From: a virus
DNA: 30,803 nucleotides
Virus record (IMG/VR): IMGVR_UViG_3300031963_000649
Coordinates: 1-30,803 of that record
Direction: 5' to 3' (one strand)
The position numbers and the translations under genes were made by a program. Of this stretch, positions 3,240 through 29,198 are shown piece by piece; position 1 is the first letter of the stretch, and each line of letters begins with the position of its first letter. The notes below the pieces were generated by a model. It did no database searches. It was not told where the DNA came from and was given only the letters and a program-made list of their open reading frames with translations.

Positions 3240-3289
3240 TTTGATAACCTTTTGTTAAATGTTGTTTAGTTATTATACTATATTATATT

Positions 3290-3889
3290 GCGGATACACG
3301 AAGGGTAAGAACGGGTGATGTAGTATAGCTGCCCAAGTATTTAATCGTTTGGGCCATACACCAGAGAATTGGTTTTAATCATTGCTTATAAGTTGTGTAG
3401 CTGGTCAAACCTATAAAATGATTAGAAGAGAGATTGATTTAGTATAAACTTTATTCAAGTCATCACCCGCTGCGATACAGCAGCTTGTTCATTTGTGGAA
3501 TATCGGCCTTCGTTACCCCTACCCATACAGAAAATTATACCTGATGGGACCACTTGCATTTTACATCTCGGTCAAGGGAATGCATCAAACCTTGATCTCA
3601 GTTCTCTTTAATGTTATTTTCTCGTCAAATTCTCTATCCGTTTGCGAGATGGACTATAACAAGTAAGACCATTTACGCTTACTAATGATACTGGACGTTC
3701 ATTCCTTGTCGGTATCAATTCTCGTTGGTTATCAGGTTAGTAAGACCCTTGTGGGATAACGAATCTCCAAACTCCCTTCTATCTAAAACAAAATCCACAC
3801 AGAATAATGAGGTAATGGCTCAATATTCGCGTGGATTAAGTTTTCCTACATACTTGGGTCACCAGTCCATTACACCAGTTTCCTACACA
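3290..3889 (-). ncRNA. Candidate large ornate structured RNA (~600 nt)
   Basis: No credible ORF fills this stretch, yet it follows a strong promoter and has dense complementary segments. Hairpins: 3829-3837/3792-3800 (long, with inner stems), 3737-3744/3678-3685, 3712-3717/3686-3691, 3641-3649/3620-3629, 3590-3595/3572-3577, 3541-3548/3522-3530, and 3408-3424/3376-3394. Closing helices: 3507-3513/3298-3304 and 3461-3469/3312-3320. Loop pairings: GTAATGG near the 5' end (3867-3873) with hairpin loop 3812-3818; loop 3395-3405 with the 5' end (3883-3888 and 3874-3878, bulging GAAA); loop 3579-3584 with 3555-3560; loop 3635-3640 with 3291-3296. Size, phage location and many pseudoknots resemble the GOLLD and ROOL classes. 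I cannot recall their consensus well enough to assign one, and it may be new. The 3' end is undefined, as no terminator is visible. Confidence 0.72.
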
Positions 3890-3895
3890 CAAATA

Positions 3896-3923
3896 AGTAT
3901 ATCCCAAAATCCTGAAAAGTCAA
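3896..3923 (-). promoter_or_regulatory. Promoter for the large structured RNA
   Basis: -35 TTGACT (3918-3923), 16-base spacer, -10 TATACT (3896-3901). The predicted start is near 3888-3889, exactly where the pairing segments of the structured RNA begin. The -35 and spacer share TTGACTTTTCAGGATTT with the promoter at 2595-2622. As at that site, a terminator hairpin lies just upstream (3950-3979). Confidence 0.78.
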
Positions 3924-3949
3924 GTGGGTGAATATTATTGGGTAATAGA

Positions 3950-3979
3950 AAACCCCTACACATTTCTGCGTAAGGGTTT
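3950..3979 (-). terminator. Intrinsic terminator upstream of the structured RNA promoter
   Basis: The minus strand has a 13-bp stem (two GU pairs) of arms 3967-3979 and 3950-3962 with a GAAA loop, followed by TCTATTACC after the stem's own U run. It would end transcription of the 4066-3950 segment and insulate the promoter at 3896-3923. The same GAAA-loop form occurs in the terminator at 26282-26305. Confidence 0.6.
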
Positions 3980-4066
3980 CTATTGGTATTTTGAGAGAAG
4001 AACGGAACAAATAGACCACTCTATTTGACCGATGATGTGTTAGTATGGCGAACTGCACATCCCCAA
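3950..4066 (-). ncRNA. Possible second small structured RNA
   Basis: This non-coding segment on the minus strand holds three consecutive hairpins: GATGTG/CACATC (4034-4039 with 4056-4061), a perfect 8-bp stem CAAATAGA/TCTATTTG with a GTGG loop (4008-4015 with 4020-4027), and the terminator at 3950-3979. No ORF of note is present. The promoter is uncertain: TTGTTT and TATTTA 16 bases apart lie near 4065-4092 but are weak. It could instead be the 3' part of a longer transcript that reads through from 4190. Confidence 0.35.
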
Positions 4067-4069
4067 TAA

Positions 4070-4085
4070 ATAGGAATTATCCTAT
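4070..4085. promoter_or_regulatory. 16-bp palindrome, possible operator
   Basis: ATAGGA (4070-4075) and TCCTAT (4080-4085) form a perfect inverted repeat with a 4-base centre. It lies between the terminator at 4096-4121 and the small RNA segment at 3950-4066, where a promoter would be expected. An operator for a small dimeric regulator is possible; there is no direct evidence. Confidence 0.3.
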
Positions 4086-4087
4086 AT

Positions 4088-4190
4088 AAAACAAACCCCA
4101 AACAACGAGGGCAGTTTGGGGAACAAATACATTTGATTTGATTTTTACAACACACCTAACATTCTATGACTACTGGTATCAGGCAGTAGT
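4088..4190 (-). ncRNA. Candidate small RNA with own promoter and terminator (~100 nt)
   Basis: A promoter (4197-4224) predicts a transcript starting near 4190. It would begin with the perfect hairpin ACTACTG / CAGTAGT (4184-4190 with 4169-4175), pass through an A/U-rich single-stranded stretch, and end at the intrinsic terminator 4096-4121. A 5'-end stem, an unstructured middle and a Rho-independent 3' end is the usual small RNA layout. There is no ORF. The outer ACATTC/GAATGT pair (4159-4164 with 4191-4196) would extend the hairpin if transcription begins a little earlier. Targets are unknown. Confidence 0.5.
4096..4121 (-). terminator. Intrinsic terminator of the DUF4338 operon / small RNA
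   Basis: CCCCAAAC (4096-4103) pairs perfectly with GTTTGGGG (4114-4121). On the minus strand the stem is followed by TTTGTTTTATAT. Confidence 0.75.
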
Positions 4191-4196
4191 GAATGT

Positions 4197-4224
4197 AATA
4201 TAATCAGTTCTCCTCAAAAGTCAA
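4197..4224 (-). promoter_or_regulatory. Promoter within the 3' end of the 4455 gene
   Basis: -35 TTGACT (4219-4224) lies inside the last codons of the upstream gene, followed by a 16-base spacer and -10 TATATT (4197-4202). Hexamers and spacing match the other minus-strand promoters at 2595, 3896 and 5652. It points into the non-coding block, so its product is most simply the small RNA at 4088-4190. Confidence 0.6.
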
Positions 4225-4455
4225 GCCCCCATCATCTATAATCCAGTTTTGTTGTAAATGGTCTTTATATTCACCAATCCACATTAAAACATTTTTAGTC
4301 TTTAACTCTCGGTGATAAGTAGAGTTATAGATTGCAGGCCAGTTCTCCCGCAAATCTTTTAGTTCTTTTGCAGAAACAAGGGAATGCCAGTAATGTTTTT
4401 TTGTAGTATATCCCTTTTGTATAGTTTCTTGTTCTAACCAGTTATACATACTCAT
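4204..4455 (-). CDS. Small hypothetical protein (83 aa), second gene of DUF4338 operon
   Basis: The product begins MSMYNWLEQETIQKGYTTKK and is rich in Trp and Tyr. I recognise no family. The ATG at 4455 is supported by GGGGAGG about seven bases upstream and by the ATGA overlap with the stop of the larger upstream gene. The in-frame ATG at 4497 lies deep inside that gene and is unlikely. The overlap suggests obligate coupling and joint function with the DUF4338-like protein. Its 3' end carries a promoter for the non-coding block downstream. Confidence 0.75.
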   Translation of the reverse strand: MSMYNWLEQETIQKGYTTKKHYWHSLVSAKELKDLRENWPAIYNSTYHRELKTKNVLMWIGEYKDHLQQNWIIDDGGLTFEEN

Positions 4456-5624
4456 CGTCCAACCTCCCCAATATAAAGTTGTTTTGTATCTTCCCACGAC
4501 ATCTGTGCAATCTTTCGGTAATACAATCTATCTTCCTTTATTCTATCATTCTCTAATAGATTAGTATATCGGTTGATAGATTTCTCTTTCCACCATTTCA
4601 TTACACCAGCTACATCATCTTTGACCCTATCGTGTAATATCAAATCGTGTTGTTGTATCTTATCCTGTAAAAACAATCTACTATTCTGGTAGAACTCCAT
4701 AAAATAGACACCTCTTTGGAACCCATGTTGGTATTGCAGAGGATTGATTTGTAGGAGTTTGTATAAGAATGTTAGTATCTGTTGTTTAGGACCTGTTCGT
4801 TCCATCAAGACATCATACTTGTCTTTGTAATGTTCTTTTAAGTAATCAGTCCATATCTCATATACATCATCATCTGGTTTAATACTCATCTTACCTGCAC
4901 TCTTACCCAACTCTTTCCAGTAAGGTATTCGTTGATACATACTATGAGAACCATATAATGATGTAGTTGTAATTCCAACAAGGTCATCATTAAACTTTTC
5001 TTTCCAATAATCTCGTATAACTTGACTACACAACAACGATGCAACCAATTTACCACCAAGAAAGTTATATCCAAATGGTTGTGTTGGAAGAATACAAGTT
5101 CCTATAGCTGTGGAGTTTAACTTTCCTTTTTTAAACTTATCTTCATTAGACCAACCAATATATTCATCCCTTACTTTAATTGAGGTCACATCACTTCCCA
5201 ACGAACATACTCCAAGATATTGATTAGATGTTTTATCTCGTATAATGATTTTAACTACACGACCTAAGTTCGGGGTGTATTCCATCGTATGACCCATTAC
5301 CCGAAGATATTTCCAATCATCTGCTAATATACTTTCTGGTTCTACGACGATGATTTCGGGGTCAATAGAATGTATTTGTTCTATTGTAATATCTTTATTG
5401 TATATGTCTGTAGGTTTCCATATACGACATTCTGTTATAGACGATTTAGTTAGGTCTGCTGTATTGTTGTAATAAGAAGATATTTCTTTCCATTTCTTAT
5501 ACAAGGTATGTTCTTCTACTGATTGACCCTTTAACATATCCATATGATTGATAAAGATATTTCTTTCTCTATCAAAACTAAATCCTATTTCTTCACCAAA
5601 GAATAATGAATGTAAATCAGTCAT
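4452..5624 (-). CDS. DUF4338-like protein (Mom/GNAT-like fold proposed)
   Basis: This 390-residue protein has, at about 120-250, the layout I associate with DUF4338: LGVCSLGSDV (137-146), a YIGWSNEDKFKKGKL segment (155-169), CILPTQPFGYNFLGGKL (177-193) and ITTTSLYGSHSMY (218-230). Similar proteins are common and unnamed in environmental phages. DUF4338 also occurs in the Druantia defence protein DruA. An acetyltransferase-like fold, as in the phage Mom base-modifying enzyme, is a reasonable but unproven idea. The C-terminal 130 residues are helical and charged. GAGG lies five bases before the ATG and a TTGACT/TATATT promoter 28-55 bases upstream, so it leads a two-gene operon. Role could be DNA modification or host takeover; unknown. 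Confidence 0.7.
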   Translation of the reverse strand: MTDLHSLFFGEEIGFSFDRERNIFINHMDMLKGQSVEEHTLYKKWKEISSYYNNTADLTKSSITECRIWKPTDIYNKDITIEQIHSIDPEIIVVEPESILADDWKYLRVMGHTMEYTPNLGRVVKIIIRDKTSNQYLGVCSLGSDVTSIKVRDEYIGWSNEDKFKKGKLNSTAIGTCILPTQPFGYNFLGGKLVASLLCSQVIRDYWKEKFNDDLVGITTTSLYGSHSMYQRIPYWKELGKSAGKMSIKPDDDVYEIWTDYLKEHYKDKYDVLMERTGPKQQILTFLYKLLQINPLQYQHGFQRGVYFMEFYQNSRLFLQDKIQQHDLILHDRVKDDVAGVMKWWKEKSINRYTNLLENDRIKEDRLYYRKIAQMSWEDTKQLYIGEVGR

Positions 5625-5679: not shown

Positions 5680-5705
5680 GGGCATATTTAATGTTGTATA
5701 TTTAA

Positions 5706-5730
5706 TAAATAGTATTTATTATTATACTTT
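5706..5730. repeat. 25-bp inverted repeat, left copy (right copy 6168-6192)
   Basis: The reverse complement of 5706-5730 matches 6168-6192 at 24 of 25 positions. The two copies flank the first of the tandem one-gene units (promoter, 5831-6130 gene, terminator). A looser relative lies at about 27182-27210, next to the third copy of the same promoter. The repeat itself contains the internal palindrome AATAGTA..TACTATT in its right copy. Confidence 0.6.
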
Positions 5731-5743
5731 CTTTTTTACCCTA

Positions 5744-5800
5744 TTGACTTTTTCTATACAAGGTGATATATTACATATGTGATACGACACAAGGTTGTAT
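5744..5800 (+). promoter_or_regulatory. Shared promoter plus ACAAG-loop leader hairpin, copy 1
   Basis: -35 TTGACT (5744-5749), 17-base spacer, -10 TATATT (5767-5772), predicted start near 5779. The transcript would begin almost at once with stem ATACGAC/GTTGTAT (5782-5788 with 5794-5800) and loop ACAAG. AAGGTGATATATTACATATGTG is identical in copies 2 (6260) and 3 (27116, minus). Confidence 0.8.
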
Positions 5801-5830
5801 TACAAAATATTTTAGAACGAGGGTAAGAAA

Positions 5831-6130
5831 ATGGTAAAGGAAATCTATAAGTCACCCAGAGATGACGGCGCACATTTTCAGTGGCGAATGTCGTGGATTT
5901 GTGAGGAAACACAACTTACGAAAAATATGATTGATGAAAATAGTATCAGGGTTGTGGAACAGGATGAATGTGACCCAAGTAACCCAAACTTGATGGGAAC
6001 TGATGAAAAGTATTTGTGTTTTAAGACAACCTATGGAACTGAATACAAAGTCCCAGCTACACATATTAAAAATGGAAATAAGATTAAAGTGTCGAGACGA
6101 AAGAATATCGCAATGCGTAACTGGGATTAA
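5831..6130 (+). CDS. Small paralogous protein A (99 aa) in a one-gene unit
   Basis: The protein begins MVKEIYKSPRDDGAHFQWRM. It shares CEETQLTKNMIDEN, DEKYLCFKTTYGT and VPATHIKNG-type segments with the protein at 6346-6618, so the two are clear paralogues. Predicted content is beta-rich with a basic C-terminus (KIKVSRRKN). No outside family is recognised. GAGGGTAAGAAA precedes the ATG. The gene has its own promoter, leader hairpin and terminator, typical of a moron or an early host-takeover gene. It is about nine residues longer than its paralogue, mainly through an acidic insert (EQDECDPSNPNLMG) around residues 43-56. Confidence 0.8.
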   Translation: MVKEIYKSPRDDGAHFQWRMSWICEETQLTKNMIDENSIRVVEQDECDPSNPNLMGTDEKYLCFKTTYGTEYKVPATHIKNGNKIKVSRRKNIAMRNWD

Positions 6131-6132
6131 AA

Positions 6133-6159
6133 AAACCCCCGACTAACAATCGGGGGTTT
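6133..6159 (+). terminator. Intrinsic terminator of paralogue A
   Basis: AAACCCCCGA (6133-6142) pairs with TCGGGGGTTT (6150-6159), loop CTAACAA, followed by CTTTTT. The stem and loop are identical to the terminator at 6625-6651. Confidence 0.88.
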
Positions 6160-6167
6160 CTTTTTAT

Positions 6168-6192
6168 AAAGTATAATAGTAAATACTATTTA
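6168..6192. repeat. 25-bp inverted repeat, right copy
   Basis: This is the partner of 5706-5730 (24 of 25 positions in inverted orientation). The stretch 6193-6259 between it and the next promoter holds no gene; TACCCTTGT and ACAAG..GGGTA segments there could form a weak stem just before the -35. Confidence 0.6.
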
Positions 6193-6259
6193 ATATTATG
6201 TGGAAAACCTTGTCCAGCTATTCCTACCCTTGTCCAATTGTAACAAGATTTCGTGGGTA

Positions 6260-6316
6260 TTGACTTTCCCCACACAAGGTGATATATTACATATGTGATA
6301 CGACACAAGGTTGTAT
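6260..6316 (+). promoter_or_regulatory. Shared promoter plus ACAAG-loop leader hairpin, copy 2
   Basis: -35 TTGACT (6260-6265), 17-base spacer, -10 TATATT (6283-6288). The leader hairpin ATACGAC/GTTGTAT with ACAAG loop is at 6298-6316. From the spacer's CACAAGG to the end of the leader hairpin it is nearly identical to copy 1, while the 5' part of the spacer differs. Confidence 0.8.
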
Positions 6317-6345
6317 TACAACACATCAAGAACGAGGGTAAAAAA

Positions 6346-6618
6346 ATGGTAAACGACATTTACAAGGCTAGCCGATTTGGTAAGGGAGACAGATTTGAGT
6401 GGAAAATGTCGTGGGTTTGCGAGGAGGCGCAGCTTACTAAAAATATGATTGACGAGGATAGTATCCGCATCGAGAGTGATGAAGATAATGACGAAAAGTA
6501 TTTGTGTTTTAAGACAACTTATGGTGTAGCATACAGGGTTCCTTCCACGCATATTAAAGATGGAACAAAGGTTGTTCGGCAGACACGAAAGGGAAAGACG
6601 AAATACCTATATAACTAA
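6346..6618 (+). CDS. Small paralogous protein B (90 aa) in a one-gene unit
   Basis: This is a paralogue of the 5831-6130 product. It begins MVNDIYKASRFGKGDRFEWK and shares CEEAQLTKNMIDED, DEKYLCFKTTYG and VPSTHIKDG. The ATG at 6346 is chosen because GAGGGTAAAAAA precedes it and the match to the paralogue starts exactly there. The ATG at 6295 would fall at the 5' leader hairpin. The shared DEKYLCFKTTYG core and a basic C-terminus (RQTRKGKTKYLYN) suggest a compact fold that may bind nucleic acid or protein. Function is unknown. It has its own promoter and terminator. Confidence 0.8.
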   Translation: MVNDIYKASRFGKGDRFEWKMSWVCEEAQLTKNMIDEDSIRIESDEDNDEKYLCFKTTYGVAYRVPSTHIKDGTKVVRQTRKGKTKYLYN

Positions 6619-6624
6619 TAAGAA

Positions 6625-6651
6625 AAACCCCCGACTAACAATCGGGGGTTT
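6625..6651. terminator. Bidirectional intrinsic terminator
   Basis: AAACCCCCGA (6625-6634) pairs with TCGGGGGTTT (6642-6651), loop CTAACAA. The plus side continues with TTTTT and the minus side reads TTTTTCTTATT, so it can end both the paralogue B transcript and the minus-strand ORF ending at 6656. Confidence 0.88.
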
Positions 6652-6655
6652 TTTT

Positions 6656-6802
6656 TCATAGCAGGTTCCAATTAAATGACCGATACTGAATCTCAAAATC
6701 TTTGATGAGTTGTAATAACTTTATTTTAGTATCATCATCCATATCTTCTTTTTCTTTGACTCGTTGTGCAAAGTTGGTGCAGTCAATATTCTTGTATTCC
6801 AT
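6656..6802 (-). CDS. 48-residue hypothetical protein
   Basis: A short reading frame on the minus strand starts at ATG 6802 with GAGGG four to five bases upstream and stops at 6656, at the edge of the bidirectional terminator. The product begins MEYKNIDCTNFAQRVKEKED and ends QYRSFNWNLL; it is mostly charged and helical. Support is the good ribosome binding site, the fit between neighbouring genes and the terminator on its side. No homologue is recognised. TATAAATA lies at 6824-6831 upstream on the same strand. Confidence 0.55.
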   Translation of the reverse strand: MEYKNIDCTNFAQRVKEKEDMDDDTKIKLLQLIKDFEIQYRSFNWNLL

Positions 6803-22006: not shown

Positions 22007-23209
22007 TTAGACAGTAACGTTTGCCCACTTCACGATTGACGCAGGTTGTCTTACGACTGTATCTGCGAACATTTCGAGATTGAGGATTGTTTGACCTGTT
22101 GCCAACTTGGTAAGGTCATCACGCTTGATTTCTACTGCACCGAATGTTGCTGCGGTTGCCTTACTGAAATCACCGAACAAGGAAACTGCCTTTCCAGCAG
22201 CTGGACGACTTAGGTATCCAGTACGGAATACACGGTTACCTGCTTGAACGATATCAAGGATACTCATGCCTGAACCAGCACCAAATGCTTGGGTTGAGAA
22301 CATTTGTGAGTATACATCGTGGTCTACAACGAATACTGAGTTATCAACGTTTGCGTTGTTCTTAGCAACTTGTGCAATCATTGCACTTGCTGATGCTAAT
22401 GCCATCGAACCAGAAAGGTTTAATGCGGTGATGTTAGAATCTTGTGAGATACCAGTCATACCAGTTCCGCCTGCACCTGAGAATGATTGACTATCGAAGA
22501 TACGGACTGATTCCGCTAGAAGGTCATTATATAATTCACTTTCGAAATCATAGGTTCCGTTCAATTTACCGAGCAAGTTACTGAAGAGGTAACGTGCGCC
22601 GATACGCTTTGGACTCCAGTTCTTTAATCCTACTACTACTTCGCTGTCGCTGATTGAACCAGTTTCTGCAAATGTTGCAGCTACGGTTGGTGTTGAGTAG
22701 AATGGCATACTGGATACGTCATTTAATGAAACGATTTGACCACCGATACGTGAGAGTAATGCACCTTCACGAAGTGATTCTTCGAATGTTAAGAATACTT
22801 TACCAGTCAAGTTTGCACCTGTGTTGCCGTATGCTGTTCCATCGCGTGTTACGCGTGACTTAATCATAGGAACGTTGGTTGGAAGGTAAAGTGTTCCGTT
22901 ACTGATTGCACGTCCTGCTGCACGTGCTTGGTCAACACCACGTTCTGCAAGTTCGCTGTTGTCGCCACGTAACCATGAAGTTACTGCGGTTGCGAATTCT
23001 GGTGTTTCGTTCTTTTTAACGTGAATTGCTGGTGCTGATACCTTGTCTGTGTTTGACTTGGTTTCGAGGATTTCTAATGCTACTGATTCTGCTGTACGAC
23101 CTTCCTTAATCCAGGTTGCGAGGTCAGCAGTTCTTTCGTACTTAGCTGCTAATTCAGCTAAACGAACTGTGTTGTCGGCTCCGTTTGTAGAGCCAGGTTG
23201 ATTGCTCAT
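22007..23209 (-). CDS. Major capsid protein from internal in-frame start (400 aa)
   Basis: An ATG at residue 279 of the polyprotein is preceded by AGGAGACAAC, the best ribosome binding site in this gene. The product begins MSNQPGSTNGADNTVRLAEL. It would have an N-terminal helical arm (291-335 of the fusion) like an HK97 delta domain, followed by the capsid domain. Independent initiation would supply the hundreds of capsid subunits needed per protease. A second internal ATG at 23515 (residue 177, MKKRDFGAVMEMVN) with GAGGAACCAGAC before it could give scaffold plus capsid. Nested starts are known in lambda (C and Nu3). Use of these sites is inferred from sequence only. Confidence 0.7.
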   Translation of the reverse strand: MSNQPGSTNGADNTVRLAELAAKYERTADLATWIKEGRTAESVALEILETKSNTDKVSAPAIHVKKNETPEFATAVTSWLRGDNSELAERGVDQARAAGRAISNGTLYLPTNVPMIKSRVTRDGTAYGNTGANLTGKVFLTFEESLREGALLSRIGGQIVSLNDVSSMPFYSTPTVAATFAETGSISDSEVVVGLKNWSPKRIGARYLFSNLLGKLNGTYDFESELYNDLLAESVRIFDSQSFSGAGGTGMTGISQDSNITALNLSGSMALASASAMIAQVAKNNANVDNSVFVVDHDVYSQMFSTQAFGAGSGMSILDIVQAGNRVFRTGYLSRPAAGKAVSLFGDFSKATAATFGAVEIKRDDLTKLATGQTILNLEMFADTVVRQPASIVKWANVTV

Positions 23210-24043
23210 GTTGTCTCCTGTGTTTGAGCGTGATTTGGCTTTTGGAGCCGATTTCATAATAACCTTTTCTTCTTCGTCTGTTGCTTCACCTTCTGCGGTT
23301 TCCATGGATGCTGGCATATACATGCCTTCTTTATCCATTTCTTCCTTTGGCATTTCTTCAGCAGGCATTTCTTCATGCTCTGCTTTTTCTTCCATCATTA
23401 CATCTTCGGCTACCTCTTCTAAGTCATCGGCTAAACTTTGGAGAAGAGTTAGTTTTTCTTCTTCACTCAAAGTATTCACCATTTCCATGACGGCGCCAAA
23501 ATCGCGTTTCTTCATGTCTGGTTCCTCTGTTTGTGGTTGTTCGTCCATTCTACCTATCCCTGCTTTGATATAATCAGCAGGGGTAGTAACCACGCTGATT
23601 TCATATAAAGTCCAACGAGTTGCGATATATTGCGGAATATCGTTGATAGCTTCTGCTTCTCGCATCTCGTTGATTTCATAGCCAATAGAAATACTTTTTA
23701 ATATACCATCTTTAATATCAGCTGATATTTGACGAGCTAATTCGCTATTCTTACTTAAACGAACCATTGCTCGTAGTTGGCCTGGAACTAACCAAACCTT
23801 TTCTACGATGCCAATATATTCGTCATTTTTATGATTGTATAAAAGAGGAACTGCCCCAGCTGCGACTCTTTCATAATCGACCGCTTCCTTTGTATGCAAC
23901 AAGGTTTCATATCCAAACTGACGGCGATATGGAACATCACTTGATGCGGCAAGCTCAATCACCAAGCCTGCATCTGTTTCTTGCGGGTTGGTGATTTCTA
24001 ATGTTCTGGTCGAGCGATTATTTAATAATTGCTTTATATCCAT
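22007..24043 (-). CDS. Prohead protease-scaffold-major capsid polyprotein
   Basis: The 678 residues hold three parts. Residues 1-165 are an S78-type prohead protease: His in LLYNHK (71), Ser in SISIGY (119) and the closing WTLYEISVVTTPAD (144-157). Residues 180-275 are acidic, with repeated AEEMPKEEM units, like a scaffold linker. From about 345 the HK97-fold capsid protein follows (EFATAVTSWLRGD; FEESLREGALLSRIGG; NWSPKRIGARYLFSNLL). In HK97 these are separate genes, so the fusion is notable. Its ATG has no good Shine-Dalgarno, while internal ATGs at residues 177 and 279 do. Self-cleavage within the acidic linker would free the capsid domain. Both active-site candidates are present. Confidence 0.88.
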   Translation of the reverse strand: MDIKQLLNNRSTRTLEITNPQETDAGLVIELAASSDVPYRRQFGYETLLHTKEAVDYERVAAGAVPLLYNHKNDEYIGIVEKVWLVPGQLRAMVRLSKNSELARQISADIKDGILKSISIGYEINEMREAEAINDIPQYIATRWTLYEISVVTTPADYIKAGIGRMDEQPQTEEPDMKKRDFGAVMEMVNTLSEEEKLTLLQSLADDLEEVAEDVMMEEKAEHEEMPAEEMPKEEMDKEGMYMPASMETAEGEATDEEEKVIMKSAPKAKSRSNTGDNMSNQPGSTNGADNTVRLAELAAKYERTADLATWIKEGRTAESVALEILETKSNTDKVSAPAIHVKKNETPEFATAVTSWLRGDNSELAERGVDQARAAGRAISNGTLYLPTNVPMIKSRVTRDGTAYGNTGANLTGKVFLTFEESLREGALLSRIGGQIVSLNDVSSMPFYSTPTVAATFAETGSISDSEVVVGLKNWSPKRIGARYLFSNLLGKLNGTYDFESELYNDLLAESVRIFDSQSFSGAGGTGMTGISQDSNITALNLSGSMALASASAMIAQVAKNNANVDNSVFVVDHDVYSQMFSTQAFGAGSGMSILDIVQAGNRVFRTGYLSRPAAGKAVSLFGDFSKATAATFGAVEIKRDDLTKLATGQTILNLEMFADTVVRQPASIVKWANVTV
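23216..23220 (-). promoter_or_regulatory. Internal ribosome binding site for the capsid protein
   Basis: AGGAG on the minus strand is followed by ACAAC and the in-frame ATG at 23209. It is far stronger than the site of the full-length start at 24043, where the closest purine run is about 20 bases away. Confidence 0.65.
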
Positions 24044-24079
24044 ATTAAATATATAGTTTGCTATTTTCCAAAAGTTTAA

Positions 24080-25672
24080 TCAGTCTGCTTCTTCTTCCGC
24101 GAGGTCTTGGGCTTGGGCTGCGGCGTATTCTTCGGCGTCATTTGCCGTTTGGACAATTCCTGCGGCTGCTGCGTTTGCTGTATCAACTGCTTTTGGGTCT
24201 CCTGGGACAATATTGACCCCATACTTTTCGATTTCGGCTTCTTCCATAGCAAGTTGCTTAATGTTGCTAATAAAGTCTGTGCCAAGTTCTGCACATACTT
24301 GCGTGCGTGTGTAAAGTCCATTATTAATACCCTCTATATACCCCTTCATATCTTTTGATGGGTCTATTGTTGAGTGGCGGGTGCCACGGAATGCAACCTC
24401 ATAATAGTTTGCTGCATCCATCGAAGGAAGAACAACTCCACCATGTAACAATGCGTGTTCTATCCATTTCTTATAAACCTTCATATGAAAACATTTAATA
24501 AGCCATCTTTGGATTTGTTGGAAATGTTCTCTTTCTACGATAGAACTGAAACGAACATTTGCACTATTACCTTGGCTTGGGTCTGCGGTCAAGGTTGCAT
24601 ATGAGATAAACAATCCAGAAGCAATACTCTTTAAGTATGCATCAGTAGTTTGCTGGAATGCTTGACTTGGGAATTGTAGGTTTAATGCTTGTAGGTTCTT
24701 TCCGTGGTCCAGTTCTAATATTTGACTATATGCCAAGTTGATTTCTGGTTGACGATATTGTGGAACTACTGCATTGCTGACCGATACATCATCCACCCCA
24801 ACTGGGTCAGGTTCGGTGTTCGTCATTACAAGGGGGGTGGTTGCTGCAATACTGCATGCTTGTAAATGTGCTTCCAAGTATTGGTTTAATCTTGATACTG
24901 TATTGAGGACTGCGGTGGTCCAAGGAAGGGAACGAACAGCACCAGGAATATCATTATCAAAAATATGTAATATTTCGTCTGCTGGTACGCGTTCTCTTAC
25001 TCTTGGGATTTGTGTGATGTCGCTTGGAAGGCGGTTCCATACGTGATAGGCAATTGGGCGACCGCGGCGGTCAAACTCAATACCCATAATGATTATTCTA
25101 TCACTTTCACCTTGCTGACCCAATACTGTGTTGTAATTAACATCTAATAAAGTTGGGTCAAGTATTTGTAAAGCAAATCCGTATTTGTTTACGTCCTTAC
25201 CTGTGACCATACGAACTAATGCTTCACCATCGCGAGCAACTGTGCGGATGACCATCTGTTCTGCTTCTGCAAAGGTTAGGGTTGTATCGTATGTTGCTTC
25301 ACGGCACCAATCCATCCATGCCTTTCGTATTGTGTTATTTACTCGTTCAGCTAACTTACCATTTGGTGCGGTCACAACTGGTTCTAACTTTAGTCCGTCT
25401 TGACCTACCACGAATACAGAGATGACTTCCATATAGCGTTGAAGGTATGGGTCAATCTTTACTAAATACCGAGAAAGGTCACGGGTGCGTTCTAAATGTA
25501 ATAAGAGGTCTTGATTAGCCGAGGCAAATATACCACGATTAAATGCAAACTGAATTGCTGGTGCTGGAAGGCGGGCGTCTCCCAAGCGTGGGTGTGTTCT
25601 CTTCATTACAACTTTTTTCTTTTCCTCTTTCTTGTTTTGACCGAAAAGGAAATCACTAAGTCTATTAGCCAT
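24080..25672 (-). CDS. Portal protein (lambda gpB family)
   Basis: The 530-residue protein matches the lambda-type portal family in length (gpB is about 530 residues) and in segments: the N-terminal NRGIFASANQDLLLHLERTR (45-64) and YLVKIDPYLQRYMEV, then AEQMVIRTVARDGEALVRMV (about 136-155), and near 230 RVRERVPADEILHIFDNDIP. It forms the dodecameric ring at the capsid vertex through which the terminase pumps DNA. The start overlaps the previous stop (TAATG). The C-terminus is an Ala/Glu-rich tail (EEYAAAQAQDLAEEEAD), common in portals. Assignment is firm. Confidence 0.9.
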   Translation of the reverse strand: MANRLSDFLFGQNKKEEKKKVVMKRTHPRLGDARLPAPAIQFAFNRGIFASANQDLLLHLERTRDLSRYLVKIDPYLQRYMEVISVFVVGQDGLKLEPVVTAPNGKLAERVNNTIRKAWMDWCREATYDTTLTFAEAEQMVIRTVARDGEALVRMVTGKDVNKYGFALQILDPTLLDVNYNTVLGQQGESDRIIIMGIEFDRRGRPIAYHVWNRLPSDITQIPRVRERVPADEILHIFDNDIPGAVRSLPWTTAVLNTVSRLNQYLEAHLQACSIAATTPLVMTNTEPDPVGVDDVSVSNAVVPQYRQPEINLAYSQILELDHGKNLQALNLQFPSQAFQQTTDAYLKSIASGLFISYATLTADPSQGNSANVRFSSIVEREHFQQIQRWLIKCFHMKVYKKWIEHALLHGGVVLPSMDAANYYEVAFRGTRHSTIDPSKDMKGYIEGINNGLYTRTQVCAELGTDFISNIKQLAMEEAEIEKYGVNIVPGDPKAVDTANAAAAGIVQTANDAEEYAAAQAQDLAEEEAD

Positions 25673-26214
25673 TATATTATCACCGCCGTTTGTTTGATGC
25701 CTGTTCTACCCAATCGGGCATTTACAAGTGCTCGTCTTTCACTATCCCAGAACCCTCTTTCTGATAGAAGGTCTTTGCGGTTCATCATACTGATAGAACG
25801 ACCTGCGATAGAAATACTTTCTGCTGCTTCCCCTGCGGACAACTGGTTGAGTAGTGCCTTCTCAATCAACTCAATCATACGAGTGCAGAGATATTCCTTA
25901 CTTGCTTGCACTGCGTAGTTGGTCTGCACATTTACAACACCCTTTTCTACTGTAAATGCCATGCTTGCACTATTCATACGAATGGCGAAATCATAGACAC
26001 CAGCTTTTAGATATTGTCCTTGTGTTGCACTAATGGTATATAAGAAACCATCCTCGACATAGTTAGGGTCGGTAGATGGTGTAGAGATTGCCCCACTCAC
26101 TGCAAGGTTTGTGGGTCCATTAAAGTATAAAACAGATGTGTAGTCGCTGGAAGGATAGTCCGTATAGTGTTGTGTAAAGCGGACTGTATCCCCTGCAATA
26201 AAATCTTTAATCAT
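25672..26214 (-). CDS. Neck protein: Ig-like domain plus gpW-like C-terminus
   Basis: This 180-residue protein lies directly before the portal gene, where lambda has gpW. Residues 1-100 follow an all-beta pattern (IAGDTVRFTQHYTDYPSSDY, GVYDFAIRM). Residues 105-165 are helical with ELIEKALLNQL, SISIAGRSI and DLLSERGFWDSER, resembling gpW/DUF6148-type head-joining subunits (helix, SIxGRS hairpin, helix). The fusion of the two modules is unusual and may place an Ig-like domain on the neck. The start is 68 bases after a terminator; a weak TTGACT-containing promoter lies between. Domain calls are by pattern only. Confidence 0.65.
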   Translation of the reverse strand: MIKDFIAGDTVRFTQHYTDYPSSDYTSVLYFNGPTNLAVSGAISTPSTDPNYVEDGFLYTISATQGQYLKAGVYDFAIRMNSASMAFTVEKGVVNVQTNYAVQASKEYLCTRMIELIEKALLNQLSAGEAAESISIAGRSISMMNRKDLLSERGFWDSERRALVNARLGRTGIKQTAVII

Positions 26215-26228
26215 AGTATCCCCAAAGG

Positions 26229-26259
26229 TTCTTCACATAAATAGATGGTAAAAAGTCAA
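26229..26259 (-). promoter_or_regulatory. Possible promoter for the neck/portal operon
   Basis: -35 TTGACT (26254-26259) followed by TTTTTACC resembles the other promoters in this window, but no good -10 lies 16-18 bases away (TGTGAA at 16). Placement after a terminator and before a gene is the main support. Confidence 0.3.
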
Positions 26260-26281
26260 AAATCATCTAATATATACAAAA

Positions 26282-26305
26282 AACCCCTGTATTTCTACAG
26301 GGGTT
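26282..26305 (-). terminator. Terminator of the two-gene moron
   Basis: On the minus strand AACCCCTGTA (26296-26305) pairs with TACAGGGGTT (26282-26291) around a GAAA loop, followed by TTTTGTATAT. It lies 14 bases after the stop of the 26748 gene. Confidence 0.88.
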
Positions 26306-26319
26306 GATTGTTTTTGTTT

Positions 26320-26748
26320 TTACATTTTTGCCATAAGGGCTGATAATTTTTCATCATTATTGTATGCCAACTTAAACATATCTCCCAATCCTAAATCACA
26401 AAAAATGTCTCCCAGCACACTACCTACATTATCATAATGAGGATGTATCATAGTTTCCTTAATATCATTTAATGGAAACCAACCACACAATACTTTACCT
26501 TGATGCATTGGTGATTTTACAAAGTCTCTTAAAGTTTTTTCAGCCACATCTTCTGTAATATTTTTTGTGATAAAAATTCCAATAGAATATGGAATGGGTG
26601 AATGCTCAGGTAATATTACTGTTCCCACAATAAATGCATTATTAATGTTGTAGTCAAGAATATACTGACCTGTTCCTTCACCAAACTCTTCTGCGGTGAT
26701 AATAACAATTTTATCATTATCAGGTGCAAGCGGTTTCGGTAGTGGCAT
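26320..26748 (-). CDS. Moron-encoded hypothetical protein (142 aa)
   Basis: The protein begins MPLPKPLAPDNDKIVIITAE and has mixed alpha/beta content, including YILDYNINNAFIVGTVILPE and SIGIFITKNITEDVAEKTLR, and a His/Cys-containing stretch (HPHYDN; CDLGLGDMF). No family is recognised. The ATG at 26748 is one base after the previous stop and has AGGAG about eight bases upstream inside that gene's last codons; ATGs upstream to 26802 lie inside the neighbour. It is co-transcribed with the 27058 gene from a non-virion-type promoter, which suggests a regulatory or host-directed role rather than a structural one. Confidence 0.72.
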   Translation of the reverse strand: MPLPKPLAPDNDKIVIITAEEFGEGTGQYILDYNINNAFIVGTVILPEHSPIPYSIGIFITKNITEDVAEKTLRDFVKSPMHQGKVLCGWFPLNDIKETMIHPHYDNVGSVLGDIFCDLGLGDMFKLAYNNDEKLSALMAKM

Positions 26749-26749
26749 T

Positions 26750-27058
26750 TTAGTTCTCCTCGTCATCGGTGAATGTAATATTGCCATCCTCGTCAATCTC
26801 AATAATGCCTACATTCTCTGCGCACTCTACAATAGCTTCATCACTAATATTACTGAATAACTCGTGAATACGACCAGGTGTTTCTATGCTAAAAGTATTA
26901 TTGCTGTGGTTGAGTAGCAAAAATCTCTCAGCACTTTCTACCCAAATGATTTCTTTATTGTCTGCATCAAAACAAGCTGCTGATATTGTATCTTCTCTAA
27001 GCATGTCGCTAATCTTTTCTACGATTATCTCTGCGTCATTCCAGTGCAACTTTTGCAT
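26750..27058 (-). CDS. Moron-encoded acidic protein (102 aa)
   Basis: The protein starts MQKLHWNDAEIIVEKISDML, is rich in Asp and Glu, and ends EIDEDGNITFTDDEEN. Acidic small proteins of phages sometimes mimic DNA or inhibit host factors, but nothing here identifies a target. The ATG at 27058 is supported by GAGGG five bases upstream, in the same AACGAGGGT context as the two tandem paralogues at 5831 and 6346. An in-frame ATG at 27109 falls at the 5' leader hairpin and is rejected. It shares promoter and leader with those paralogues, though not protein sequence. Confidence 0.75.
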   Translation of the reverse strand: MQKLHWNDAEIIVEKISDMLREDTISAACFDADNKEIIWVESAERFLLLNHSNNTFSIETPGRIHELFSNISDEAIVECAENVGIIEIDEDGNITFTDDEEN

Positions 27059-27081
27059 AGAACCCTCGTTCTTATTGTTTT

Positions 27082-27144
27082 GTGTTGCGGAACCTTGTGT
27101 CCCGAACACATATGTAATATATCACCTTGTATAGAAAAAGTCAA
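27082..27144 (-). promoter_or_regulatory. Shared promoter plus ACAAG-loop leader hairpin, copy 3
   Basis: -35 TTGACT (27139-27144), 17-base spacer, -10 TATATT (27116-27121), identical to copies 1 and 2 over AAGGTGATATATTACATATGTG. The transcript would begin with an 11-bp hairpin (arms 27099-27109 and 27082-27093, one bulged base) around the same ACAAG loop (27094-27098). The stem sequence differs from copies 1 and 2 but pairing is kept. Confidence 0.8.
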
Positions 27145-27176
27145 TACCCTAACATTAGGTTTTTGTTAGGGTATTG
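27142..27176 (-). terminator. Terminator after terminase, overlapping the moron promoter
   Basis: CAATACCCTAAC (27142-27153) and GTTAGGGTATTG (27165-27176) form a perfect 12-bp stem with an 11-base loop. On the minus strand it runs into ACTTTTTCT, whose T run lies in the promoter spacer; the last stem bases are the first bases of the -35. Terminator and promoter are thus merged. Confidence 0.8.
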
Positions 27177-27206
27177 TAATATAAAGTATTTACTATTAAA
27201 TGGTAT

Positions 27207-29198
27207 TTATCTACGGAATATGCTAAATCCCGTATTCTTGGATTGATGTAATCGTATGCCTGGCTTGTATTGTTGGACTTGTTCTTGCGGTTTGACCTCA
27301 CCTTCAGGGGTCATTACATCCAGTTCTGGTTGTAGTAGGGACACTTTCTTTGCTAAATCATCCAGTTTTTGGAATACATCTGGACCTAATGCAAGCAAAG
27401 CAGCGTAAGCATAGACAAAACAATCCAATGCTTCCACTCTATCTCGTGTAGCTTTCCAACTACCAATACGCCGTGGTCCCTTAAACTCATATACTTTCTT
27501 TTCACCTGTGAGTTGATAAAGAGTTTCTTTATCCAAATATCGTTCCTGCTCTATACGCTTGGGATATGCTACAGGTAAATGTAGGTAGTTTTCCCCTGGG
27601 TCCATATTGTTTAGTATCATAGCTAAATGGTCTTTTGCAGGATTGACCCCAACTCTAAAATACAACTGCCCACTTTCTTTATAGAACTTTGCTTGTCGTT
27701 CTAATATACCACTTGTATAGTTTGCATCACCTTTGACTGCAATAATAGTTCTATTAGCATGGTCTATTTGTTTTAAGTCCCGAACATATCGTGCAACTCT
27801 ATTGGCATTATAACCCGAGTCGATTGCAATAGAACGAATACCAATCTTTGCTCCATTTGCTGTCGTGTATCTTTCGTTTAATAAAAAGTTTGTTAGGTCC
27901 TGAAACACGATGTTCTTGTTGGTGTCTCCTTCAAACAAACGGAAATCAATCATATAGATTTCATCACTCTTACCATACCCATACACATATGCTTCGATAC
28001 GATTAGCCTGGATGTCTACTCCGCAGGTCAAGACACCAACACCATTACATATTTCTGTTTTGGTTGGCACCTCAGCGTTGTATATCTCTAATCGTTCCCC
28101 AAGTTTGTTTGCGGGAATATAATCTTCTATCAACTGGAATGTCTTACCTAATCTACTATTGTAAAACACTTGTAGCTTATGTCTATTCTTTTTGATTGCT
28201 TGCCATTCTACTACCAGTTCTTTCCAAGTCATATTGACCGAGTATAAAGCATTTAGGAAGAACCCTGCAACCTTACTATCTACATTTGTCTTTATCCATT
28301 CACCTTGTAAGAGCATCTGGTATTTCTCTTCTTCTTTTATACCATACTCACATGCACGACAGATATAGATTGGTTCTTCGGGATTTGCTTTATAGTTTAT
28401 TCTATCCCATTCTAATGTTTGCTTATGACCGCAAGAAGGACAAGGTAAATAGAAATAGCGTTGGTCGCTTTCCTTAAATCTACTTTCTATCTGGGATAAA
28501 TCTGTAATGGTTGGAGTAGAACTATACACCCGCTTTGCTTTGTGTTGGAATGTCGTTGTGCGGATAGTAGCCAAGTCAATAACATCACCATCTTTACCAG
28601 CACTCTCGGGATAGCGGTCAATCTCATCAGCAAACAACACACGAATAGTTTTACCATGCAGACCCGAACTATTCTGTGCGCCAACCATCGTTAGCGTTCC
28701 CCCCATATATCGTTTTGATAAAAGGTTATTGCCTCCGTCACGAGTCCATTTGTCTTTAATCAAATCACGAAGTTCAGGACTATCTCGTAATACTGGTTCT
28801 ACATCATTACTACTAAACTGCTTGGCAATCGTTTCTGTAGGTAATAACCACAAGATAGGTGATGGTGATTGATGCATATAATACCCTGTTGCTGCCAACA
28901 TGCTGACTGTCTTACCAACACGAGCAGATGTCATCAATACTACATCCTTGTGTTCGTTGTCGCAGATAGTATCAAGGATTTCTTTTTGCCATGGCATACG
29001 CTCATAGCTGTATTTGCCTGGTTCAGCACTATTCTCAGGGGGTAGATAAAAGTATTTGTTAGCCCATTCACTCCCTGTAAGTTTAGGAGTGGGCTTAAGG
29101 ATTTGCTTGGTCAATGCATTGATGCGTTGTTTAAATGCTGTGACTGCATCCATACTATCTTCTGGTATATATTCTTCTGGTATAATCGTATTAAGCAT
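27207..29198 (-). CDS. Terminase large subunit (GpA family)
   Basis: The 663-residue protein has the lambda GpA-type layout. The ATPase domain has Walker A TSARVGKT (90-97), Walker B RVLFADE (186-192) and the motif C-like segment YSSTPT (225-230). A zinc-binding pair follows, CPSC (253-256) with CRAC (280-283). The nuclease domain has acidic residues in TCGVDIQ (Asp395) and SIAIDSGYN (Asp460), and ends with an ATRDRVEALDCFVYAY segment. It packages DNA into the prohead and cuts concatemers. The start overlaps the small subunit stop by eight bases. GpA-type enzymes usually make cohesive ends; the cos site is not identified in this window. Confidence 0.93.
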   Translation of the reverse strand: MLNTIIPEEYIPEDSMDAVTAFKQRINALTKQILKPTPKLTGSEWANKYFYLPPENSAEPGKYSYERMPWQKEILDTICDNEHKDVVLMTSARVGKTVSMLAATGYYMHQSPSPILWLLPTETIAKQFSSNDVEPVLRDSPELRDLIKDKWTRDGGNNLLSKRYMGGTLTMVGAQNSSGLHGKTIRVLFADEIDRYPESAGKDGDVIDLATIRTTTFQHKAKRVYSSTPTITDLSQIESRFKESDQRYFYLPCPSCGHKQTLEWDRINYKANPEEPIYICRACEYGIKEEEKYQMLLQGEWIKTNVDSKVAGFFLNALYSVNMTWKELVVEWQAIKKNRHKLQVFYNSRLGKTFQLIEDYIPANKLGERLEIYNAEVPTKTEICNGVGVLTCGVDIQANRIEAYVYGYGKSDEIYMIDFRLFEGDTNKNIVFQDLTNFLLNERYTTANGAKIGIRSIAIDSGYNANRVARYVRDLKQIDHANRTIIAVKGDANYTSGILERQAKFYKESGQLYFRVGVNPAKDHLAMILNNMDPGENYLHLPVAYPKRIEQERYLDKETLYQLTGEKKVYEFKGPRRIGSWKATRDRVEALDCFVYAYAALLALGPDVFQKLDDLAKKVSLLQPELDVMTPEGEVKPQEQVQQYKPGIRLHQSKNTGFSIFRR

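Follow-up and report, generated by a model that had tools for sequence, protein, structure and literature searches.

A probable moron in the terminase-neck slot of a phage and its apparently exchangeable cargo

Do two small genes that stand between the terminase and the neck gene of a phage belong to the head genes around them, or do they form a transcription unit of their own? This question was addressed in a 30,803-base IMG/VR virus record, which is called the window throughout. The segment is best explained as a moron, an accessory unit with autonomous transcription, which occupies the terminase-neck slot. For this account as a whole, including the steps of the mechanism proposed for it, we estimate a probability of roughly 0.8.

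The cassette, its flanks and its transcription signals

The head and packaging genes of the window are encoded on the minus strand in the order TerS, TerL (GpA type), cassette, neck, portal (lambda type) and protease-capsid fusion. The left flank of the slot is the gene for the large terminase subunit TerL (27207-29198, minus strand; phrog_15, E 3e-188), and the right flank is the neck gene, which is involved in head-tail joining (25672-26214, minus strand; phrog_5774, E 2e-8). The protease-capsid fusion (24043-22007) was assigned by its position and sequence, without a family match. Positions 24000-29000 gave no megablast match among known phages, and a search of genome contigs with the portal protein returned a single relative (27%) without host indication.

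The cassette encodes two orphan proteins on the minus strand, g1 with 102 amino acids (26750-27058) and g2 with 142 amino acids (26320-26748). Neither of them, nor the protein of the tandem units described below, had a tblastn match among known phages. Searches of Pfam, PHROGs, PADLOC and NCBIfam yielded nothing for g2 and weak, inconsistent matches for g1, and a sequence search of the PDB gave weak matches only. AlphaFold2 produced poor models, with a mean pLDDT of 54 for g1 together with its relative from contig L015 and of 38 for g2 together with its relative from contig L006. A host-directed role of the cargo is a tentative suggestion, to which we give somewhat less than an even chance. 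The G+C contents of g1 (37.9%) and g2 (33.1%) differ mildly from those of the flanks (39.5-42.9%). The end of g1, the ribosome-binding site and the start of g2 are combined in the joint GAGGAGAACTAAAATG (26746-26761, minus strand), which occurs nowhere else in the window.

An earlier note on this DNA had proposed that the cassette possesses its own promoter and terminator, and corresponding sequence signals were found on the minus strand at 27144-27116 and 26305-26278. The first, identified by a promoter scan and by its sequence, is a near-consensus sigma70-type promoter, TTGACT-N17-TATATT, in which a TG precedes the -10 (extended -10, TGA). The second is a canonical intrinsic terminator.

The note had also placed the cassette inside the late operon. 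This placement is weakened by a conserved element, CTATTTAT (26237-26244, minus strand), located past the cassette terminator and 30 bp before the neck gene. Most of the relatives have the element, whether their site is empty or occupied; in the window, L006, L015, L018 and L022/L024 it precedes the neck gene by 30-34 bp. It is present at the sites of two of the three empty lineages and missing from the third (L019), and L014 has GTATTTAT in its place. In nine stretches of the phage group, 16 of 19 occurrences were located 5-110 bp upstream of an ORF start on the same strand, compared with 114 of 1683 hits (6.8%) for the remaining 167 octamers of equal composition; these occurrences are not independent, because many of the sites are homologous between relatives. 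Sites were recorded at 26237, 11570, 6823, 5705, 4066 and 1311 in the window, at 1947 and 4129 in L015, at 1486 and 3660 in L018 and at 2606 and 4818 in L024. CTATTTAT is a candidate for a promoter of the phage or for another kind of regulatory element. The core of the T4 late promoter is TATAAATA, and the reverse complement of the element, ATAAATAG, resembles it, but 16 of the 19 sites are oppositely oriented and a T4-type late promoter was rejected. The position of the element suggests that the cassette probably lies at the border of transcription units rather than within one operon. The head genes could therefore probably be transcribed without crossing the cassette, and a strong terminator would thus be tolerated there.

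Occupied and empty sites among relatives

The junction was compared in 12 further contigs, which were retrieved with g1, g2, the neck protein and alignments of TerL and of the neck protein and were all kept. Grouping by near-identity assigned these and the window, 13 contigs in all, to seven lineages. A TerL search yielded 18 loci, of which 10 with 26-34% TerL identity were left out of the site comparison. Three lineages have an empty site with gaps of about 55-80 bp (L017/L018, L019 and L022/L023/L024), and one contains only an HNH gene, recognised by a family match, with neither module nor promoter (L014). In the remaining three the site is led by the promoter module, followed by three different gene sets: g1 and g2 in the window, L009 and L011; the same joint, g2 and terminator in L006, where genes for 149 and 56 amino acids replace g1; and three genes with a diverged joint and another terminator in L015 and L016. 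The insert was also absent from all four cultured roseophages inspected among 832 records with a TerL match (CRP-821, CRP-831, CRP-406 and CRP-811), in which TerL abuts the next gene or nearly does so.

The moron reading of the earlier note is borne out by these empty sites, in three of seven lineages and four of four cultured roseophages, and by the different cargo of the occupied ones. A pattern in which every relative carried g1 and g2, and none a promoter or terminator for them, was not what the synteny comparison revealed. The same data bear on the possibility that both are ordinary late head genes, for example for head completion or as capsid accessories, that happen to have a promoter. 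Such a role would agree with their location among packaging and head genes and with their shared direction, but it is very improbable given that they are missing from the lineages and roseophages named above, are substituted by unrelated genes in others, and have a promoter in common with orphan units at 5.7-6.6 kb. Among the findings that count against the moron account is the placement of L014: the portal tree groups it in one clade with L006 and the window (99/99, with deeper forks open), and it lacks the module despite its membership. The unit may have been gained before L015 split off and then lost or replaced in L014, or there may have been exchange between lineages.

The swap of cargo can be seen in L006. 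This contig is 96% identical to the window up to the start codon of g1, and the match resumes near the end of g1; its g2 is 92% identical. The gene for 149 amino acids has a G+C content of 54.4%, compared with 39.0% for TerL, and appears to be a G+C-rich foreign gene that was swapped in while joint, g2 and terminator were kept. Its product has a 46% relative in the Actinomycetia phage DSL-LC01 (Dishui Lake, 129 kb), so this cargo is common to a large lake phage. A DnaJ-like zinc motif in this protein was dismissed, as the Pfam match (E 8e-4) was local and below the cut-off. The GAGGAGAACTAAAATG joint is repeated in L006 before the gene for 56 amino acids and before g2. In L015 the gene boundaries read GAGGACAACTAATATG and GAGGACAACTAAAATG, with the cargo joint GAGGACAACTAAWATG. 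Such constant joints would carry a ribosome-binding site with each gene and offer short homology for exchange. Comparison of g1 with the first cargo gene of L015 gave 25.8 bits, above all 1000 shuffles (maximum 22.3), but 22.7 bits once the C-terminal end common to both was removed. A different setting gave E 0.006. This similarity is weak and suggestive. Taken as sequence comparisons, these results point to a moron slot with exchangeable cargo.

Related HNH genes occur at the portal-capsid junction of L006 (5994-6473), L009 (3723-4193) and L014, at the cassette site of L014 (499-990 and 3077-3547 for the two genes of this contig) and, in L010, close to the left end (156-605). L009, with about 99.9% identity to the window, nevertheless carries an HNH gene at a place where the window lacks one. 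The terminase-neck junction of the window itself contains no HNH gene. These genes are candidates for drivers of local exchange. Positions 22167-23509 of the window are 100% identical to 3985-5327 of L014 over 1343 bp, whereas nearby sequence is about 88-89% identical, which indicates recent recombination or a chimeric assembly.

A shared control module and its inverted repeats

The claim that the cassette uses the same control module as distant tandem units holds: 40 nt of the cassette module (27146-27107) are identical to 5742-5781 (plus strand) in tandem unit A, and identity with 6255-6297 (plus strand) in unit B is 91% over 43 nt. Both units are located on the plus strand and consist of the same promoter and hairpin, one ORF and their own terminator. 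Unit A (5742-6168) contains an ORF for 99 amino acids (5831-6130) and unit B (6255-6660) a paralogue for 90 amino acids (6346-6618); the two orphan proteins are 60% identical in alignment. Among the viral contigs searched, the 24-nt core of the module was found on only four, all in this phage group, and a looser pattern on six.

Several other features were observed around these units. AT-rich near-palindromes of the TAATAAATAGTATTTATTA type lie on either side of unit A (5703-5730 and 6168-6195), and a related stretch is located upstream of the cassette (27177-27198). Units A and B contain two occurrences of ACAAGGT...TATTACA, one around the -10 and one within the 3' half of the hairpin (window 5758-5810). 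Divergent from the tandem units, the phage encodes a protein of 390 amino acids (4452-5624, minus strand) with a Pfam match to the Druantia protein DruA (E 4e-24). A further stretch of roughly 900 nt (3250-4200, minus strand), in which the coding strand has no long ORF, includes a TTGACTTTT promoter-like site at 3923; this stretch gave no Rfam family at gathering score and perhaps represents a structured RNA.

At the cassette, the promoter is preceded by a terminator-like stem (27142-27176, minus strand), a 13-bp inverted repeat with a loop of 9 that extends as far as the third base of the -35. Its loop exceeds the limit of 8 in the promoter and terminator scan, which therefore missed it. A 12-bp stem ending within the -35, with its U run as promoter spacer, had been described before; the end point and the spacer proved correct, the T5 of the spacer starting two bases past the stem, and only the length had to be changed to 13 bp. 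Perfect stems of at least 12 bp with loops of 3-10 were found twice in the window, the other being a tandem-unit terminator, and not at all in 20 Markov shuffles. The outer half of the stem is A+T-rich. Two nucleotides separate the stem from the T5, a spacing that suggests weak termination. The joint of terminator and promoter is nearly unchanged in L006. In L015, which is more distantly related and has retained the unit, the stem has only 8 bp (z -1.73; 12 of 200 shuffles equally stable) and the -10 is poor, so that the insulating joint is poorly conserved. The stem was accordingly rejected as a conserved terminator, as that of L015 is no better than shuffles. Most likely, the stem of the cassette acts as a probably leaky terminator that would shield the promoter from read-through of the terminase gene.

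Alternatively, in line with the interference of late termination and cassette initiation proposed in the earlier note, the joint could be a regulatory switch, in which late polymerases pausing in the spacer block initiation at the cassette, so that it is on early and off, or expressed by read-through only, late in infection. A polymerase paused at a stem that ends on the -35, with the T run as spacer, would indeed cover the promoter, and the near identity of the joint in L006 is in line with such a function. We nevertheless consider a switch unlikely: both tandem copies lack the 13-bp stem ahead of the promoter, which evidently has no need of it, the stem has shrunk in L015, and the gap before the T5 points to weak termination.

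A second inverted repeat follows the promoter. This leader hairpin was not part of the earlier interpretation, nor was cargo exchange; moron and shared module stand from that interpretation, and the late-operon placement has lost ground. With the transcript start placed about 7 nt past the -10, the predicted RNA begins with GUG and should fold from its first nucleotides into a hairpin of 10-11 bp with an ACRAG loop. In the cassette, folding and covariation place it at 27082-27109 (minus strand), with GUGUUCGGGAC and GUUCCGCAACAC around the loop ACAAG in an 11-pair stem with one bulge. Units A and B have GUGAUACGAC and GUUGUAUUAC around the same loop, L006 contains a shorter variant, and the loop of L015 is ACGAG. 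Folding energies of the 60-62-nt leaders range from -11.4 to -19.0 kcal/mol; as stable a fold was reached by none of 200 shuffles for unit A, unit B and the cassette, by seven for L006 and by three for L015. In the 17-nt core, 95.8% of 24 cells are paired, and four of six inner pairs have changes on both sides, compared with none in all six slid controls. The covariation score was matched by two of 500 shuffles, although it is based on only four distinct sequences, in 17-nt pieces chosen around the loop, a choice that favours structure. Two inner pairs are changed on both sides between the cassette and L006 (G-C to A-U and G-U to C-G), whose sequences show no other difference over the stretch that runs from the -35 up to the hairpin. 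A comparable 5' stem was present at six of 88 promoter-like sites, including all three modules. Rfam gave no match at gathering score in the window and, at the cassette, matches far below it only; an RNA model search of 19 records found no further copies above noise. The hairpin probably starts the messages of the cassette and of the two other units, and may serve as an mRNA stabiliser or regulator.

The two inverted repeats might instead be operators, bound by a phage repressor at the 13-bp repeat on the -35, at the GTG...CAC repeat on +1, or at both, as in a repressor-controlled early unit. They flank and overlap the promoter, and three promoters have the downstream repeat in common. However, the downstream repeat changes its letters while pairing is kept, which is the behaviour of an RNA structure and not of an operator, and the upstream repeat is missing at the tandem promoters; operators are thus improbable here. 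The hairpin might also be a recognition tag, although this is a long shot. An RNA-binding protein of phage or host origin would then recognise the ACRAG loop with which each accessory mRNA begins, and a foreign gene entering the slot would at once join a common regulon. If true, the slot would be a plug-in expression socket, in which terminator, promoter, RNA tag and ribosome-binding-site joints stay constant and the cargo turns over.

Comparison with known systems and proposed mechanism

Morons have been defined as one or more coding regions that bring their own promoter and terminator and are inserted between two genes which related phages have side by side (PMC4378225), and the cassette is filed here as a variant of this class. 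It resembles the morons of lambdoid and other tailed phages as outlined there: small genes, own promoter and terminator, and a position between otherwise adjacent genes. It differs from the morons presented in that source in that the control module is present at three units in two places, with cargo swapped behind a constant joint (PMC4378225). The composition given as a criterion in the same account differs only mildly for g1 and g2 but clearly for the G+C-rich L006 gene (PMC4378225). In the lytic siphovirus SPP1, a late-region segment with ORFs 8-10 contains moron genes with transcription signals and also carries oriR (PMC6316719). There, too, moron genes bracketed by transcription signals interrupt a conserved order of head genes, but a shared promoter-hairpin module is not described in the part of that report considered here (PMC6316719).

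The ESAS/SAS elements of Cluster K mycobacteriophages are likewise repeated leader elements with inverted repeats ahead of assorted gene starts; as portrayed in the portion of the source used, they differ from the present element, which includes the promoter and has a covarying stem (PMC3203893). The 13-bp start-codon element SAS, GGGATAGGAGCCC, had no match at up to two mismatches (PMC3203893). CRP-822-type roseophages, in records of 29-33 kb, share the one-strand order TerS-TerL-hypothetical-portal-MCP, but their TerL is only about 35% identical and the junction of TerL and the next gene lacks an insert in the four records inspected (PMC12629253). Homing nuclease genes are known at boundaries of genetic exchange, and the HNH genes at polymorphic intergenic sites adjoining exchanged DNA resemble these; unlike in the cases covered by that source, the junction of the window has no HNH gene and a causal role is a candidate (PMC10448857). 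A PMC literature search returned no description of the promoter-hairpin module, which is not proof of absence.

For the moron we propose the following sequence of events. Host polymerase would start the cassette mRNA at the sigma70-type promoter, independently of late transcription, and the first nucleotides of the message would fold into the hairpin, which may protect or regulate it. Both g1 and g2 would be translated from this mRNA, which the strong intrinsic terminator would stop ahead of the neck gene with its own upstream element. The front stem would limit read-through arriving from the terminase gene. Because control parts and ribosome-binding-site joints are constant, cargo could be swapped by homologous recombination in the flanks, possibly aided by HNH homing endonucleases of this and nearby junctions.

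The natural series of empty sites, a site with a nuclease only and sites with three cargo sets shows how phages gain accessory genes and trade them while the control region ahead of them stays fixed. Accessory transcripts may be marked by the short covarying hairpin in their leader, and such slots are good places to search for host-directed phage genes that are still unknown.
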